IMG/VR virus record: IMGVR_UViG_3300009488_001095 | Span: 1-22,882 of that record | Length of the DNA stretch: 22,882 nucleotides | From: a virus | Strand: one strand, 5' to 3' | Shown: positions 1,471 to 5,973 of the stretch, one piece after another | Layout: every line of letters begins with the position of its first letter | Position numbering within the stretch: position 1 is the stretch's first letter | Position numbers and translations under genes: made by a program | The notes under the pieces: model-generated | Seen by the model: the letters and a program-made list of their open reading frames with translations, nothing else | Databases searched by the model: none | Told to the model about the DNA's origin: nothing

Positions 1471-2331
1471 ATGGGTTTTTGTCATTTGCATGTACATTCT
1501 GAATTTAGTTTGCGTGATAGTTTAATTAAGATAGATAATTTAATTGAAATTATTAAGGGGCATGGTATGGATACAGTTGCTATAACTGACCATGGTGCGG
1601 TATCGGGTATATTAGAGTTTTATCTCAAGTGTTTAGAAAATGGTGTGAGACCTATCATCGGTATAGAAGCGTATGCTGTTAAAAATATTACTATCCAAGA
1701 TAGAGAGGAAAAGCGTAGACATATAGTTCTTCTTGCTAAGAATGAAAAGGGATATAGAAACTTGGTAAGACTGGCTTCTGTCGCTGGGGAAAGGGGTTTT
1801 TATTACGTTCCCCGAATAGACTTAAGGATATTGGAGAAGTACCGTGAAGGATTAATATGTTTAACAGCTTGCTGTTTTAGTTCAATTGTATATCTTATGG
1901 GAGAAGGGGGGGGAGATGTTTTGAGGATAGTACGTCTTCTCCGTAATTTATTTGGTAGAAATTTATACTTGGAGATACAACCCCATGAGATGAAGGAGCA
2001 AAAGAAGCATAATATATTAATGGACTCAATAGGACGGCGGCTTGATTTACCCTTAGTCGCGACCCAAGATGTTCATTTTTATAAGAAGGAAGATAAAGAA
2101 GTTCATGATGTTCTTATGCGTATTCAGGGGAGAGAACCTTATACTACGGATACTATATACCTTTCTACTAAGGATGAGATGTATGCGGAGTTCAAGAGTC
2201 ATGATTATTTATCACGTGACACAATTCGAGAAGCAATTAGTAATACTGGAGTTATTGCAGATGAAATAGAGAATTATAATATCCCGATAGAGCAGTTTTT
2301 TTTCCCTTCATTTGAATTGAGAGGTGTATGA
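1471..2331 (+). CDS. dnaE: DNA polymerase III alpha subunit (DnaE), N-terminal PHP-domain fragment
   Basis: The ATG follows AGGAGG at 1461-1466. The product is a PHP domain typical of the DnaE N-terminus. HLHVHSEFSLRDS at residues 5-17 keeps the H-x-H metal ligands, AITDHG comes at about 37-42, GIEAYA at 64-69, and VATQDVHFY followed by EVHDVLMRIQ at about 196-217. Because the ligands are retained, this may be a working PHP (3'-5' exonuclease or phosphoesterase), unlike the degenerate domain of E. coli DnaE. The frame stops at TGA 2329-2331, just after FPSFELRGV, where intact DnaE proteins continue into a G..YL..L...G segment. That continuation lies at 2603, beyond a 274-bp insertion. The fragment could act with the downstream polymerase fragment as a two-subunit enzyme. 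Confidence 0.88.
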   Translation: MGFCHLHVHSEFSLRDSLIKIDNLIEIIKGHGMDTVAITDHGAVSGILEFYLKCLENGVRPIIGIEAYAVKNITIQDREEKRRHIVLLAKNEKGYRNLVRLASVAGERGFYYVPRIDLRILEKYREGLICLTACCFSSIVYLMGEGGGDVLRIVRLLRNLFGRNLYLEIQPHEMKEQKKHNILMDSIGRRLDLPLVATQDVHFYKKEDKEVHDVLMRIQGREPYTTDTIYLSTKDEMYAEFKSHDYLSRDTIREAISNTGVIADEIENYNIPIEQFFFPSFELRGV

Positions 2332-2332
2332 T

Positions 2333-2575
2333 ATGAAGAAGTTCCCATTTTGTGAATGTGGATGCGGTGAGACAGTATCTAAATATGAGAATAGTTTTGT
2401 CAAGGGACATCATAGAGTAGGAACGAAGCATTCTGAAGAAGTGAAACAGAAAGTAAGGATAGCACATTGTGGGAAGGAGATGTCGGAAGAAACGAGAGAA
2501 AAGATGAGGGTCGCTAATCTTGGGAAAAAGCATTCTGAAGAGACAAAAAGGAAGATGAGTTTGGATTACATTTAG
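2333..2575 (+). CDS. NUMOD3-type DNA-binding ORF inserted in dnaE (homing-element remnant)
   Basis: The 80-residue product starts with a Cys knuckle, FCECGCG. Three copies of a short basic motif follow, of type G-K-x-H-S-E-E-T-x-x-K (TKHSEEVKQK, EMSEETREK, KKHSEETKRK). These are NUMOD3 modules, the DNA-contacting parts of GIY-YIG, HNH and related homing endonucleases. No nuclease domain is present, so this is either a minimal DNA-binding protein or, more likely, a decayed homing endonuclease. The larger ORF at 19460 has the same CxCGCG-plus-NUMOD layout. The ATG at 2333 has GAGAGG at 2319-2324 and begins one base after the upstream dnaE stop. An in-frame GTG at 2324 is also possible. The ORF fills nearly all of the insertion that splits dnaE. 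Confidence 0.75.
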   Translation: MKKFPFCECGCGETVSKYENSFVKGHHRVGTKHSEEVKQKVRIAHCGKEMSEETREKMRVANLGKKHSEETKRKMSLDYI

Positions 2576-2602: not shown

Positions 2603-2701
2603 ATGGATAATAAAAGATATTTGTGGAAGTTATGTAGTGAGGGTTTTGAGAATAGAAAGAAATATTTTGTGACGGAGGAGAGAACATATCAAGTAGATTG
2701 A
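2603..2701 (+). CDS. dnaE: dnaE internal fragment (32 codons) stranded between insertion and frameshift
   Basis: This frame encodes MDNKRYLWKLCSEGF and continues to ...TYQVD before TGA 2699-2701. It matches the DnaE region YL..L..EGL..R that links the PHP domain to the polymerase palm. Joined to the upstream fragment it gives FELRGV-MDNKRYLW, the expected continuation. It overlaps the next fragment by a few bases in the -1 frame. One extra T at 2698-2699 would turn GAT TGA AG into GAT TTG AAG and join it to the polymerase core as YQVD-L-KMEYN. No slippery heptamer is visible. So this is a natural lesion, an assembly indel in a T run, or a translational-coupling junction. Confidence 0.7.
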   Translation: MDNKRYLWKLCSEGFENRKKYFVTEERTYQVD

Positions 2702-2703
2702 AG

Positions 2704-5700
2704 ATGGAATATAATCTAATTATCCGATTGGGGTATGAGAATTATTTTTTGATTGTTTGGGATATATCACGTTATGCAAGAGAACATGGAATTTTGGGGA
2801 CAGCGCGAGGTTCAGTAGCAGGCTCACTGCTGGCTTTTTTGATTGGGATAACTGATGTAGACCCGATAAGATTTGACTTGATGTTTGAAAGGTTTCTGAA
2901 TGAGACGAGAGCGGTGACGGACCCCCCGGATGTTGATTTGGATTTCCAGTCTTCAAAGCGCAATCAGATAAAACAGTATATTATTGATAAGTATGGGAGT
3001 GATAGGGTGAGTTCAATAGGGTCTTATTCCAGAATGTATTCAAGTGGTGCGATAAAAGATGTTGCAAAAGCTTTGGGATTAGACTATCATTCTTTAAATA
3101 AGGCGATAGCACGTAGACTTTATGATATGACTTTAGAGGAAGCGTATGAGTCGGTTGATACATTCAAACAGTGGGTTGATAGAGATGAGGGACATAAAAG
3201 ATGCTTTGATATTGCTTTGCAACTGGAAGGTTTAGTACGCCATAGAACTGTTCACCCAGCGGGGATGGTAATTACTCCTGGAAGTTTAGAAGAATATCTA
3301 CCAGTTTATAAAGTAGGTAATACGATATGTACTCAGTGGAAAGATATATTCGTAGCGAAAAGAGGTATTTTGAAAGTGGATATTCTGGGGGTCAGTACGT
3401 GGGATGTAATTAGTTCTGCATTAGATTTTATTGAAGAGCAGATTAATTTATTGGATATACCGTTAGATGATAGTGGTGTGCTGGATACGTTTACAAGGGG
3501 TGAAACTTTAGCAGTCTTTCAGTTTGAAGCTCACCATCTTCAAAAGATAATTAAAATGTTAAGAGCGGATAGGTTTGAGGACTTAGTGGTTGCTACTACG
3601 ATTGCACGTCCTGGAGCGCATACAACAGGTATAATGGACTCAGTTATCAGAAGAAAACATGGTGAGGAAAAAGTAGAGTATCCACATGAATCAGTGAAGC
3701 AATTGTTAGCTGATACTTACGGGCATCCGATTTATCAGGAGTTAATTATGAAGATGGCGAATATCGCGGGAAACATTCCTTTAGTAGATACGGAAATTAT
3801 GCGTGCTGCTATGAAGAAAGAAAGTCATGAAGTGATGGGTGGGTATCAGGAACAGTTTATGGCGGGTTCTAAAAGTAATGGTATTCCTATGAGTAGTGCG
3901 GCGCGCATGTGGGAGATGATACAGGCGTCTTCAAAGTACGGTTTCAATAAATCTCATTCTGTATCATATTCTCTATTAAGTTACTTTTGTGCTTATTTGA
4001 AGTACCATTATCCTCTGGAGTATATGACAGCTTGCCTTAAACATGAAGGTAGTTCGGATAAGATACCATTACTTATGAATGAATGTAAAAGATTGGGTCT
4101 GAGCGTTAGACCAGTAGATATAAATAAGAGTGAAGTTCAATTTACTACGGACGGTGAGTCAATATACTGTGGATTTACTGTCATAAAGCATATAGGTGAA
4201 AAAGCAGCACAAGAGATTGTCACACATCAACCCTTTAAATCAAAGCGTGATTTATTGGATAGAGTAAATAAGCGTAGTTGCAATAAAAAAATAATTAATA
4301 GTTTAGAGGAAGCGGGTGTGTTCTCACATGGTGAGGTTAGCCCAATTAAAATACTTAATGCTTATGGGTGTTTGGTGGGAGAATTACCAGATTTAGATTT
4401 GGATGATTTAGATAACTGTTCAATGTGTGATTTATGTGACGTTAGATATAAGGTAGTTGAAGGCTGTGGAAGTCAGTTAGCAGATATTATGTTTGTAGGA
4501 GAGGCGCCTGGTTGCGTTTCCGGAAATTCTCTTATAGATGTTGCGTTTAGAAATAAAAGCGTGTATCCAAAAGGAATTCCAATTAAAGATTTGGTCGGTA
4601 AAAAGGATTTCTATGTATATTCTTATGATGTATCTGATGACAGTATGGTTCTTGGAAAGGTTAATAGGGTATGGAAGACAGGTAGAAAAAAGGTTTATAA
4701 GGTGACTTATGAATGGAGATATGCAAAGGGGCACAATACTGTTTATCTTGAGGATTCAATGAATGTAACATCGAATCATAGATTCTTGTTGAAGAAGTGC
4801 GGATGGAGAGACCCATTTAAGGGTATAGACTACGGCGAGGAGAGATACATTTCTATTGATGAGGGTTTGCAAGTTGGTGCAAGTTTACAACCATTTTATC
4901 GAAGTCAACCTGCAAGGGGGAACGCTCGCATAGGGGTTTCAAGTAATGATAGGAAGTCAGAGTCCAGGTTTCTTCTGAGCTATAAAATAGGGGAGGAGTC
5001 GGTGTCAGGTGAACAGTGTCATCATATAGATAGAGATACGCGTAATGATTCGTACGAAAATATAGAGCTTCATACTGTGAAGAGTCATTCCCGATTACAT
5101 ATAGAAGAAGACGGAAATCCTATGAGTAATCCGAATGTAAGACAGAAACATTTAGTAATAGTACAGTCTGAACATTACAGGAAGAAACATAGTATAATAA
5201 TGAAGGAAATTTTGAAAGACCCAGTTCGGTATTCTTTGAGATTGAAGCAAATACAGGATACAAATGAAGCAAGAAGTAATACTGTGAAAAAATTATTCCA
5301 AAACCCTCAATATTATTGGAAGTATTTGCTTGGTAGACAAAAGCAATATAACTCTTTATCTAATGATTGGGTGGTAAAGAAATTCCAAGAGAGGTTTCCT
5401 GATGTAGAACAGCCGATAGATAATCACAAGGTTATTTCCATAGAATATATTGGCAAAGAAGACGTTTATGATATGGAAGTGGAAAAGTATCATAATTTCG
5501 CAGTTAATGGTATATTTGTTCACAATAGCACAGAAGATAGAACAGGGACTCCTTTTATCGGCAGAGCGGGGCGGTTACTTAGGGGGAAATGGATAATTGC
5601 TTTGGGCTTACGCCCATCAGAAGTTTGGATTACTAATATTGTTAAGTGTGCGCCGAAGAGTGAGTCTGGTGGTAAAATAGGAAAGCCCTCAGACAACCAC

Positions 5701-5973
5701 ATAGCAATATGTACCCTATGGTTGGAAAAGGAGATAGATATTATAAAGCCACGTGTTATAGTAGCACTCGGTTCGTTTTCTTTGCAGCAGTTATCTATGG
5801 AAAAGTATATTACGAGAATGCACGGAGAGACTTTTGATATTGTGACAAAATATGCAGGTAAACGGGAGGGTATTACAGGGTACGGGCTTTTCCATCCTGC
5901 TTATATACTACGAAATAAAGAAGATGTTTCTAAAGAGTTGAAGGGTTTAAAGCAGATATTAGAGGAATTATAG
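2704..5973 (+). CDS. dnaE: DnaE polymerase core fused to family-4 uracil-DNA glycosylase, with an HNH intein
   Basis: Residues are counted from the TTG at 2698, two codons before the ATG used here. The C-family polymerase core shows ARGSVAGS (36-43), PDVDLDF (77-83, catalytic D80 and D82) and KVDILG with the third acidic residue, D228. A helix-hairpin-helix-like segment follows around 525-550. From residue 574 the protein becomes a family-4 UDG: Cys 574/577/580, GEAPG (601-605), then after the intein STEDRTGTPFIGRAG, WITNIVKC (uracil-reading Asn980, Cys984), Cys1005 and HPAYILR (1066-1072). The Fe-S cysteines and catalytic motifs are all present. The 338-residue intein lies at 606-943; without it this part is about 753 residues. 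The start is uncertain: GGAGG at 2674 is too far away, so translation may be coupled to the overlapping fragment. The DnaE C-terminal OB/tau-binding region is absent. Confidence 0.9.
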   Translation: MEYNLIIRLGYENYFLIVWDISRYAREHGILGTARGSVAGSLLAFLIGITDVDPIRFDLMFERFLNETRAVTDPPDVDLDFQSSKRNQIKQYIIDKYGSDRVSSIGSYSRMYSSGAIKDVAKALGLDYHSLNKAIARRLYDMTLEEAYESVDTFKQWVDRDEGHKRCFDIALQLEGLVRHRTVHPAGMVITPGSLEEYLPVYKVGNTICTQWKDIFVAKRGILKVDILGVSTWDVISSALDFIEEQINLLDIPLDDSGVLDTFTRGETLAVFQFEAHHLQKIIKMLRADRFEDLVVATTIARPGAHTTGIMDSVIRRKHGEEKVEYPHESVKQLLADTYGHPIYQELIMKMANIAGNIPLVDTEIMRAAMKKESHEVMGGYQEQFMAGSKSNGIPMSSAARMWEMIQASSKYGFNKSHSVSYSLLSYFCAYLKYHYPLEYMTACLKHEGSSDKIPLLMNECKRLGLSVRPVDINKSEVQFTTDGESIYCGFTVIKHIGEKAAQEIVTHQPFKSKRDLLDRVNKRSCNKKIINSLEEAGVFSHGEVSPIKILNAYGCLVGELPDLDLDDLDNCSMCDLCDVRYKVVEGCGSQLADIMFVGEAPGCVSGNSLIDVAFRNKSVYPKGIPIKDLVGKKDFYVYSYDVSDDSMVLGKVNRVWKTGRKKVYKVTYEWRYAKGHNTVYLEDSMNVTSNHRFLLKKCGWRDPFKGIDYGEERYISIDEGLQVGASLQPFYRSQPARGNARIGVSSNDRKSESRFLLSYKIGEESVSGEQCHHIDRDTRNDSYENIELHTVKSHSRLHIEEDGNPMSNPNVRQKHLVIVQSEHYRKKHSIIMKEILKDPVRYSLRLKQIQDTNEARSNTVKKLFQNPQYYWKYLLGRQKQYNSLSNDWVVKKFQERFPDVEQPIDNHKVISIEYIGKEDVYDMEVEKYHNFAVNGIFVHNSTEDRTGTPFIGRAGRLLRGKWIIALGLRPSEVWITNIVKCAPKSESGGKIGKPSDNHIAICTLWLEKEIDIIKPRVIVALGSFSLQQLSMEKYITRMHGETFDIVTKYAGKREGITGYGLFHPAYILRNKEDVSKELKGLKQILEEL
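4513..5526 (+). mobile_element. intein with HNH homing endonuclease, in the UDG motif of DnaE
   Basis: The intein is in frame and spans 338 residues. The N-terminal splice block starts with Cys (CVSGNSLID). Block B has the T-x-x-H motif (TSNHRFLL), and block F is DVYDMEVEKYHNFAVNGIF. The C-terminal end is VHN followed by +1 Ser. All residues for canonical protein splicing are present: Cys1, the block B His, the penultimate His, the terminal Asn and the Ser nucleophile. Between the splicing halves is an HNH nuclease signature (CHHIDRDTRNDSYENIELH, then H-x-x-x-H) near 5015-5100, so the element may still home. It interrupts GEAPG / STEDRTGTPF exactly, the most conserved motif of family-4 UDGs. 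Conserved active-site positions are the usual homing targets of inteins. Confidence 0.92.

Follow-up and report, generated by a model that had tools for sequence, protein, structure and literature searches.

Why would a phage replicase end in a uracil-DNA glycosylase (UDG), and could such a domain still remove uracil? The question is raised by a 22,882-nucleotide stretch of viral DNA (here called the window), in which one reading frame passes from a C-family polymerase core into what an earlier note had described, from the letters alone, as a complete family-4 UDG.

Domain order of the polymerase frame

The plus-strand ORF at 2698-5973 encodes 1091 aa and is uninterrupted by stop codons. Pfam searches of this ORF showed DNA_pol3_alpha (PF07733, 2.2e-68), DNA_pol3_finger (PF17657, 3.4e-41), HHH_6 (PF14579, 8.8e-19), an intein splicing domain (1.4e-15) and UDG (PF03167, 6.5e-22). 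All of these matches exceed their cut-offs except a weak HNH match within the intein, and NCBIfam was concordant. The domain matches across the ORF bear out the proposal that a DnaE polymerase and a family-4 UDG share one frame. The features of the locus, in window positions, are listed below.

1471-2331, plus strand: 5' part of dnaE with the PHP domain, 286 aa, in its own ORF (PF02811, 3.3e-43; TIGR00594 positions 1-283)
2324-2575, plus strand: ORF of 83 aa with a NUMOD3 motif, inserted inside dnaE (PF07460, 2.3e-9)
2603-2700, plus strand: stretch resembling the missing dnaE segment (YLWKLCSEGFENRKKYF...), ending at a stop (three-frame translation)
2698-4329, plus strand: C-family polymerase core with NTPase/palm, fingers and HhH2 (PF07733, PF17657, PF14579)
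4330-4416, plus strand: short linker from HhH to UDG (by position in the ORF)
4417-4512, plus strand: N-terminal part of the UDG with C574, C577 and motif A GEAPG
4513-5526, plus strand: intein of 338 aa, residues 606-943 (PF14890, 1.4e-15; TIGR01443, 2.4e-7)
5527-5970, plus strand: C-terminal part of the UDG with STEDRTGTPFIG, TNIVKC (C984), C1005 and HPAYILR (PF03167, 6.5e-22)

The domains of a C-family (DnaE) polymerase, PHP, Pol3, fingers and HhH2, are all present, with PHP as a separate ORF; the 1091-aa frame itself has no PHP domain and an incomplete palm, the first part of which is missing. Both catalytic Asp motifs of the core, PDVDLDF and KVDILG, were found in the invariant Asp columns of the alignment, and the nearest DnaE cores of annotated phages are about 36% identical to it. 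Between HhH and UDG, Pfam and NCBIfam gave no match to an OB domain or a tau-binding C-terminal domain (CTD), both of which diverge fast.

With dnaE disrupted upstream of its polymerase core, production of the full-length protein is uncertain, and the core may be translated as a separate polypeptide. The NUMOD3 ORF looks like what is left of a homing element or an intron. The stretch at 2603-2700, whose likeness to dnaE was judged by eye and was not significant in tblastn, lies in a third frame, and the shift to the frame of the core falls near 2690-2700. An intron as the cause of the interruption was rejected, since Rfam contained no group I or II intron match at gathering score, and relaxed thresholds gave chance-level matches only. 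The break may reflect insertion of a homing element followed by decay, or a sequencing error. Were the whole locus a defunct piece of dnaE or a misassembly, the PHP domain in its own ORF, the inserted NUMOD3 ORF and the frame change would be explained, but we consider this very improbable: the 1091-aa frame stays open across polymerase, intein and UDG with their motifs conserved, and an identical domain order is seen in the DnaE of locus L091 and in some 60 other DnaEs. Just upstream of dnaE, at 1325-1429, lies an imperfect inverted repeat with 23-nt arms, 87% complementary and 53 nt apart, and a second NUMOD3 endonuclease-like gene is present on the same contig (19460-20275). An Acinetobacter plasmid dnaE (L182:1604-4546) is likewise split, its two ORFs flanking a NUMOD4 gene.

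The UDG domain and its intein

With the intein left out, the UDG extein (186 aa) scored 144.6 bits against TIGR00758 (UDG family 4, cut-off 125.3) and 100.4 bits against PF03167 (cut-off 24.3), which excludes a chance match, and the description of the domain as a complete family-4 UDG thus passes an intein-free profile check. The closest solved structures were Thermus UDG-A (1UI0, 2e-29) and Sulfolobus UDG (4ZBX, 6e-29). In the structure predicted with the intein included, the two halves join as one family-4 fold, which aligned to 1UI0 with a Z of 24.8 over 175 residues; the intein region of this model is of low confidence (pLDDT mostly 30-80). Stand-alone family-4 UDGs (T. thermophilus UDG-A, 1UI0; Sulfolobus tokodaii, 4ZBX; Thermotoga TM0511, 1VK2) have the same fold and share with the window the Fe-S cysteines, motifs A and B and TNxVKC; they differ in being unfused, and TthUDG has a loop Asn that the window lacks. 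UdgX has the fold and the Fe-S cysteines in common with the window UDG, but this identity was rejected: the TIGR03914 score of 115.3 bits is under the cut-off of 189.95, motif A reads GEAPG and not the GEQPG of UdgX, and the KRRIH loop of UdgX is absent in the alignment.

All three family-4 signatures are present in the window: motif A GE(A/G)PG, the Asn of TNxVKC and motif B HP(S/A)xxLR, found in ORF numbering as GEAPG at 601-605, TNIVKC at 979-984 and HPAYILR at 1066-1072. The four Fe-S cysteines C574, C577, C984 and C1005 align with C13, C16, C84 and C100 of TthUDG. The first pair had been left open between 574/577 and 577/580, and only the former stands together with 984 and 1005, as C577/C580 fails to align with C13/C16. 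Compared with 1UI0, the window retains E41, E47, F54, N80 and H155 (Tth numbering). In the alignment E41, N80 and H155 occur in all 48 of the stand-alone viral UDGs, and also in the window and L091.

One further residue, the loop Asn (Tth N89), is typical of family 4 and is part of neither the fold nor motifs A and B. It is absent in the window (TNIVKC-APKSESGGKIGKP) and in L091. By approximate counts, the loop having been located by pattern, 39 of the 42 unfused UDGs whose motif could be read have a loop Asn, as do 25 of 30 fused to PolA and the UDG of a further DnaE, L105. Some family-4 members therefore lack it too. Tth N89 has been termed catalytic and is the counterpart of UdgX H109, and replacing this His by Ala, Gly, Ser, Cys or Gln leaves UdgX working as an ordinary UDG (PMC10359453). 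Since in these mutants the motif A Glu activates water, loss of the loop Asn is compatible with activity. The earlier statement that all catalytic residues are kept is accurate for the Glu of motif A, the Asn that reads uracil and the His of motif B, and slightly too strong because of the missing loop Asn.

The intein edges read GEAPG|C...FVHN|S and the rejoined UDG reads GEAPG|STEDRTG, so the insertion lies inside motif A. Its HNH endonuclease signal is weak (HNH_3, 4.6e-4, below the cut-off). At this motif A site a PolA-UDG fusion (L003:5989-9702) also has an intein, which is 48.7% identical to that of the window over 347 columns. The UDG exteins of the two are only 32% identical, less alike than their inteins, which suggests that the intein may have been transferred between UDG genes.

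DnaE relatives and their remodelled tails

The earlier note was aware of no UDG on a DnaE; this is superseded by the DnaEs of SSU5 and Nickievirus, which carry one, and by a published survey. Timinskas 2013 (PMC3919608) described a DnaE variant, an additional polymerase of Yersinia pestis and Salmonella enterica, in which OB and CTD are replaced by a UDG of archaeal type (PF03167), and the DnaE-UDG architecture was thus already known. The window, with a PF03167 UDG in place of OB and CTD, belongs to this type of fusion. Like the window, the published variant, SSU5 and phage-plasmids have PHP-Pol3-HhH2 followed by a UDG fold, and they have no OB or CTD. They differ in that the SSU5 tail falls below the Pfam cut-off (14.9 bits) and has a remodelled pocket, its group being without the Glu, Asn and His that the window retains, and in that the intein in the UDG is a feature of the window.

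The search for further fusions was productive. A set of 232 DnaE ORFs was drawn from viral, phage, plasmid and bacterial loci, and 65 of them have a UDG-like domain. The phage DnaEs with such a domain include SSU5, nickie (Nickievirus) and RHEph10, and the alignment showed a UDG-like C-terminal end on the DnaEs of phages nickie, RHph_N1_10 and BUCTxx99. No DnaE-UDG fusion was seen in sampled bacterial chromosomes among the 80 loci listed. Only three of the 65 have intact motifs: the window, L091, whose UDG is C-terminal with about 150 unassigned residues between HhH and UDG, and L105 (L105:5971-9990, plus strand, 1340 aa), in which a UDG with intact family-4 motifs lies at residues 11-172, ahead of PHP. 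Two other contigs, L103 and L104, have UDG starts near-identical to that of L105 and end early.

Among the other DnaE tails, a group of 60 in the alignment, E41 is replaced by Asp in 58, N80 is lost in 59 and H155 is replaced by Asn in 49, while T74 is retained in 58 and K78 in 56. Judged from this alignment, the pocket is remodelled and conserved, not randomly decayed. The model of one such tail (L079) has a pLDDT of 92 and a TM of 0.84 to family-4 UDGs. In tblastn this tail matched 934 plasmid records, not all of them necessarily fusions; match counts were led by Klebsiella, Acinetobacter and E. coli, and the best plasmid matches listed were Acinetobacter, mostly annotated dnaE. It also matched 52 phage records including SSU5, some of them PolA fusions or stand-alone UDGs.

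These tails bear on two other explanations of the fused domain. The main one is that the domain reads uracil and does not erase it, binding uracil in template or product and pausing the polymerase or recruiting repair, with little or no excision; its aim could be likened to that of the pocket with which archaeal family-B polymerases read ahead for uracil. Such a role is consistent with the 60 related tails that keep the UDG fold around a remodelled yet conserved pocket, and with the loop Asn already gone in the window and L091. We nevertheless regard it as doubtful for the window, where Glu, Asn, His, Phe and four Cys, dispensable for a pure reader, are all retained. The uracil-reading Asn is moreover gone from the remodelled tails, which therefore may not read uracil at all. 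Alternatively, the UDG fold may have taken over from the OB domain, serving processivity or DNA binding without specificity, as the D4 UDG of vaccinia does in its replisome. The UDG sits exactly at the site where OB and CTD would be expected and were not detected, the remodelled tails keep the fold without the uracil-specific residues, and there is a precedent in vaccinia UDG, a processivity factor (PMC10253040). This explanation we consider unlikely, as catalytic motifs needless for a structural role are retained in the window, L091 and L105.

In a tree of the DnaE cores, the remodelled tails form one clade (support 100) with the window outside, nearest bacterial DnaEs at no more than 40% identity and on a long branch. 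AU tests did not reject the window and the remodelled tails as one clade (DnaE p 0.51; UDG p 0.95). On these results and with the long branch, the C-terminal fusions may have one origin or independent ones, and the window may show either the active state of an ancestor or a fusion of its own. In the open-access literature searched, which is weak evidence, neither the loss of catalytic residues in the PMC3919608-type group nor a DnaE with an intact UDG set or an N-terminal UDG-DnaE was reported. What looks new in the window is a near-complete UDG domain, where almost all other copies found here have lost key residues.

Recurrent UDG-replicase joins and proposed function

Fusion to DnaE is one of several ways in which UDGs meet replicases. 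The 80 viral loci nearest the window UDG hold 82 UDG ORFs, of which at least 33 are joined to PolA and 46 stand unfused as read. A family-4 UDG ORF lies between the two halves of a split dnaE in L164:4076-9140, L168:2-4319 and L122:3082-8423, with the break in each near the site that corresponds to about residue 245-251 of the core in the window; in L164 an ORF assigned by eye as DnaQ-like also lies between the halves. The likeness to phage family-A polymerases with a UDG domain, suggested earlier, was supported by L003, by other PolA-UDG fusions and by phiLo, whose family-A polymerase 'with modified template' (PDB 9QHS) holds a UDG-like domain as the PolA fusions do. Phage PolAs with an N-terminal UDG (phiLo, 9QHS; PaBG, PMC7412058; Serbin; PMBT14; L003) resemble the window in carrying a family-4-like UDG on a replicase, and in L003 also in a homologous intein that interrupts motif A at the identical site, but their polymerase is of an unrelated family and the UDG is at the opposite end. 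A dUTPase was found near fused UDGs in 6 loci only, without clear link.

We favour, by a modest measure of confidence, a uracil-recognising domain on a phage replicase that in the window probably still excises uracil. The protein would be a phage C-family replicase, by homology, with a family-4 UDG replacing the OB domain and the tau-binding CTD, so that, going by the known DnaE layout, uracil recognition is presumably placed where DnaEs normally carry domains that bind ssDNA and the replisome; this placement in the replisome is likewise inferred. The intein is expected to splice itself out (C1, block-B TSNH and HN|S), after which the UDG domain would bind a [4Fe-4S] cluster through its four conserved Cys. 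Uracil would then be flipped out and, as Glu, Asn and His are all present, most likely excised, perhaps slowly given the lost loop Asn. The domain's task would be to detect uracil, whether from deaminated cytosine or from dUTP use, during copying of the phage genome.

Handling of uracil is favoured because the association recurs in different forms (C-terminal on DnaE, N-terminal on DnaE, N-terminal on PolA, and within split dnaE) and because the residues invariant in the stand-alone viral UDGs, E41, N80 and H155, are held in the window and L091. Family 4 UDGs are active on ss and ds DNA (PMC5295032). Against excision, removal of template uracil ahead of the polymerase would leave an abasic block, and the window and L091 lack a loop Asn that is typical of unfused UDGs. 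Nor can excision be the general reason for the fusion, since the largest DnaE-UDG group gave up the catalytic residues; the remodelled phage-plasmid tails are probably DNA-binding or base-reading modules without uracil excision. Read-ahead or excision of uracil by the replicase is plausible. Modified-base phage DNA had been offered as another explanation, and no feature here points specifically to modified bases.

A broader and tentative proposal is that phage replicases were repeatedly joined to a UDG fold as a built-in uracil checkpoint with two states, one eraser-like (the window, L091, L105 and many PolA fusions) and one reader-like with a conserved new pocket (phage-plasmid DnaEs), the window being an intermediate with chemistry kept and loop Asn lost. 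If so, the window would give the first demonstrated case of a C-family replicase that deals with uracil in its template. By carrying a uracil-handling domain itself, a replicase would link the recognition of damage to the synthesis of DNA, and catalytic and remodelled tails on one polymerase type would allow excision, sensing and plain DNA binding to be distinguished directly. The function of the remodelled tail matters for many common elements, as it is spread across phage-plasmids of Klebsiella, Acinetobacter, E. coli and Salmonella, where the usual annotation is only DNA polymerase III alpha. Near several DnaE-UDG genes, upstream of dnaE in L010, L011 and L183, lie genes whose annotation is cobaltochelatase CobS/CobT or porphyrin biosynthesis.
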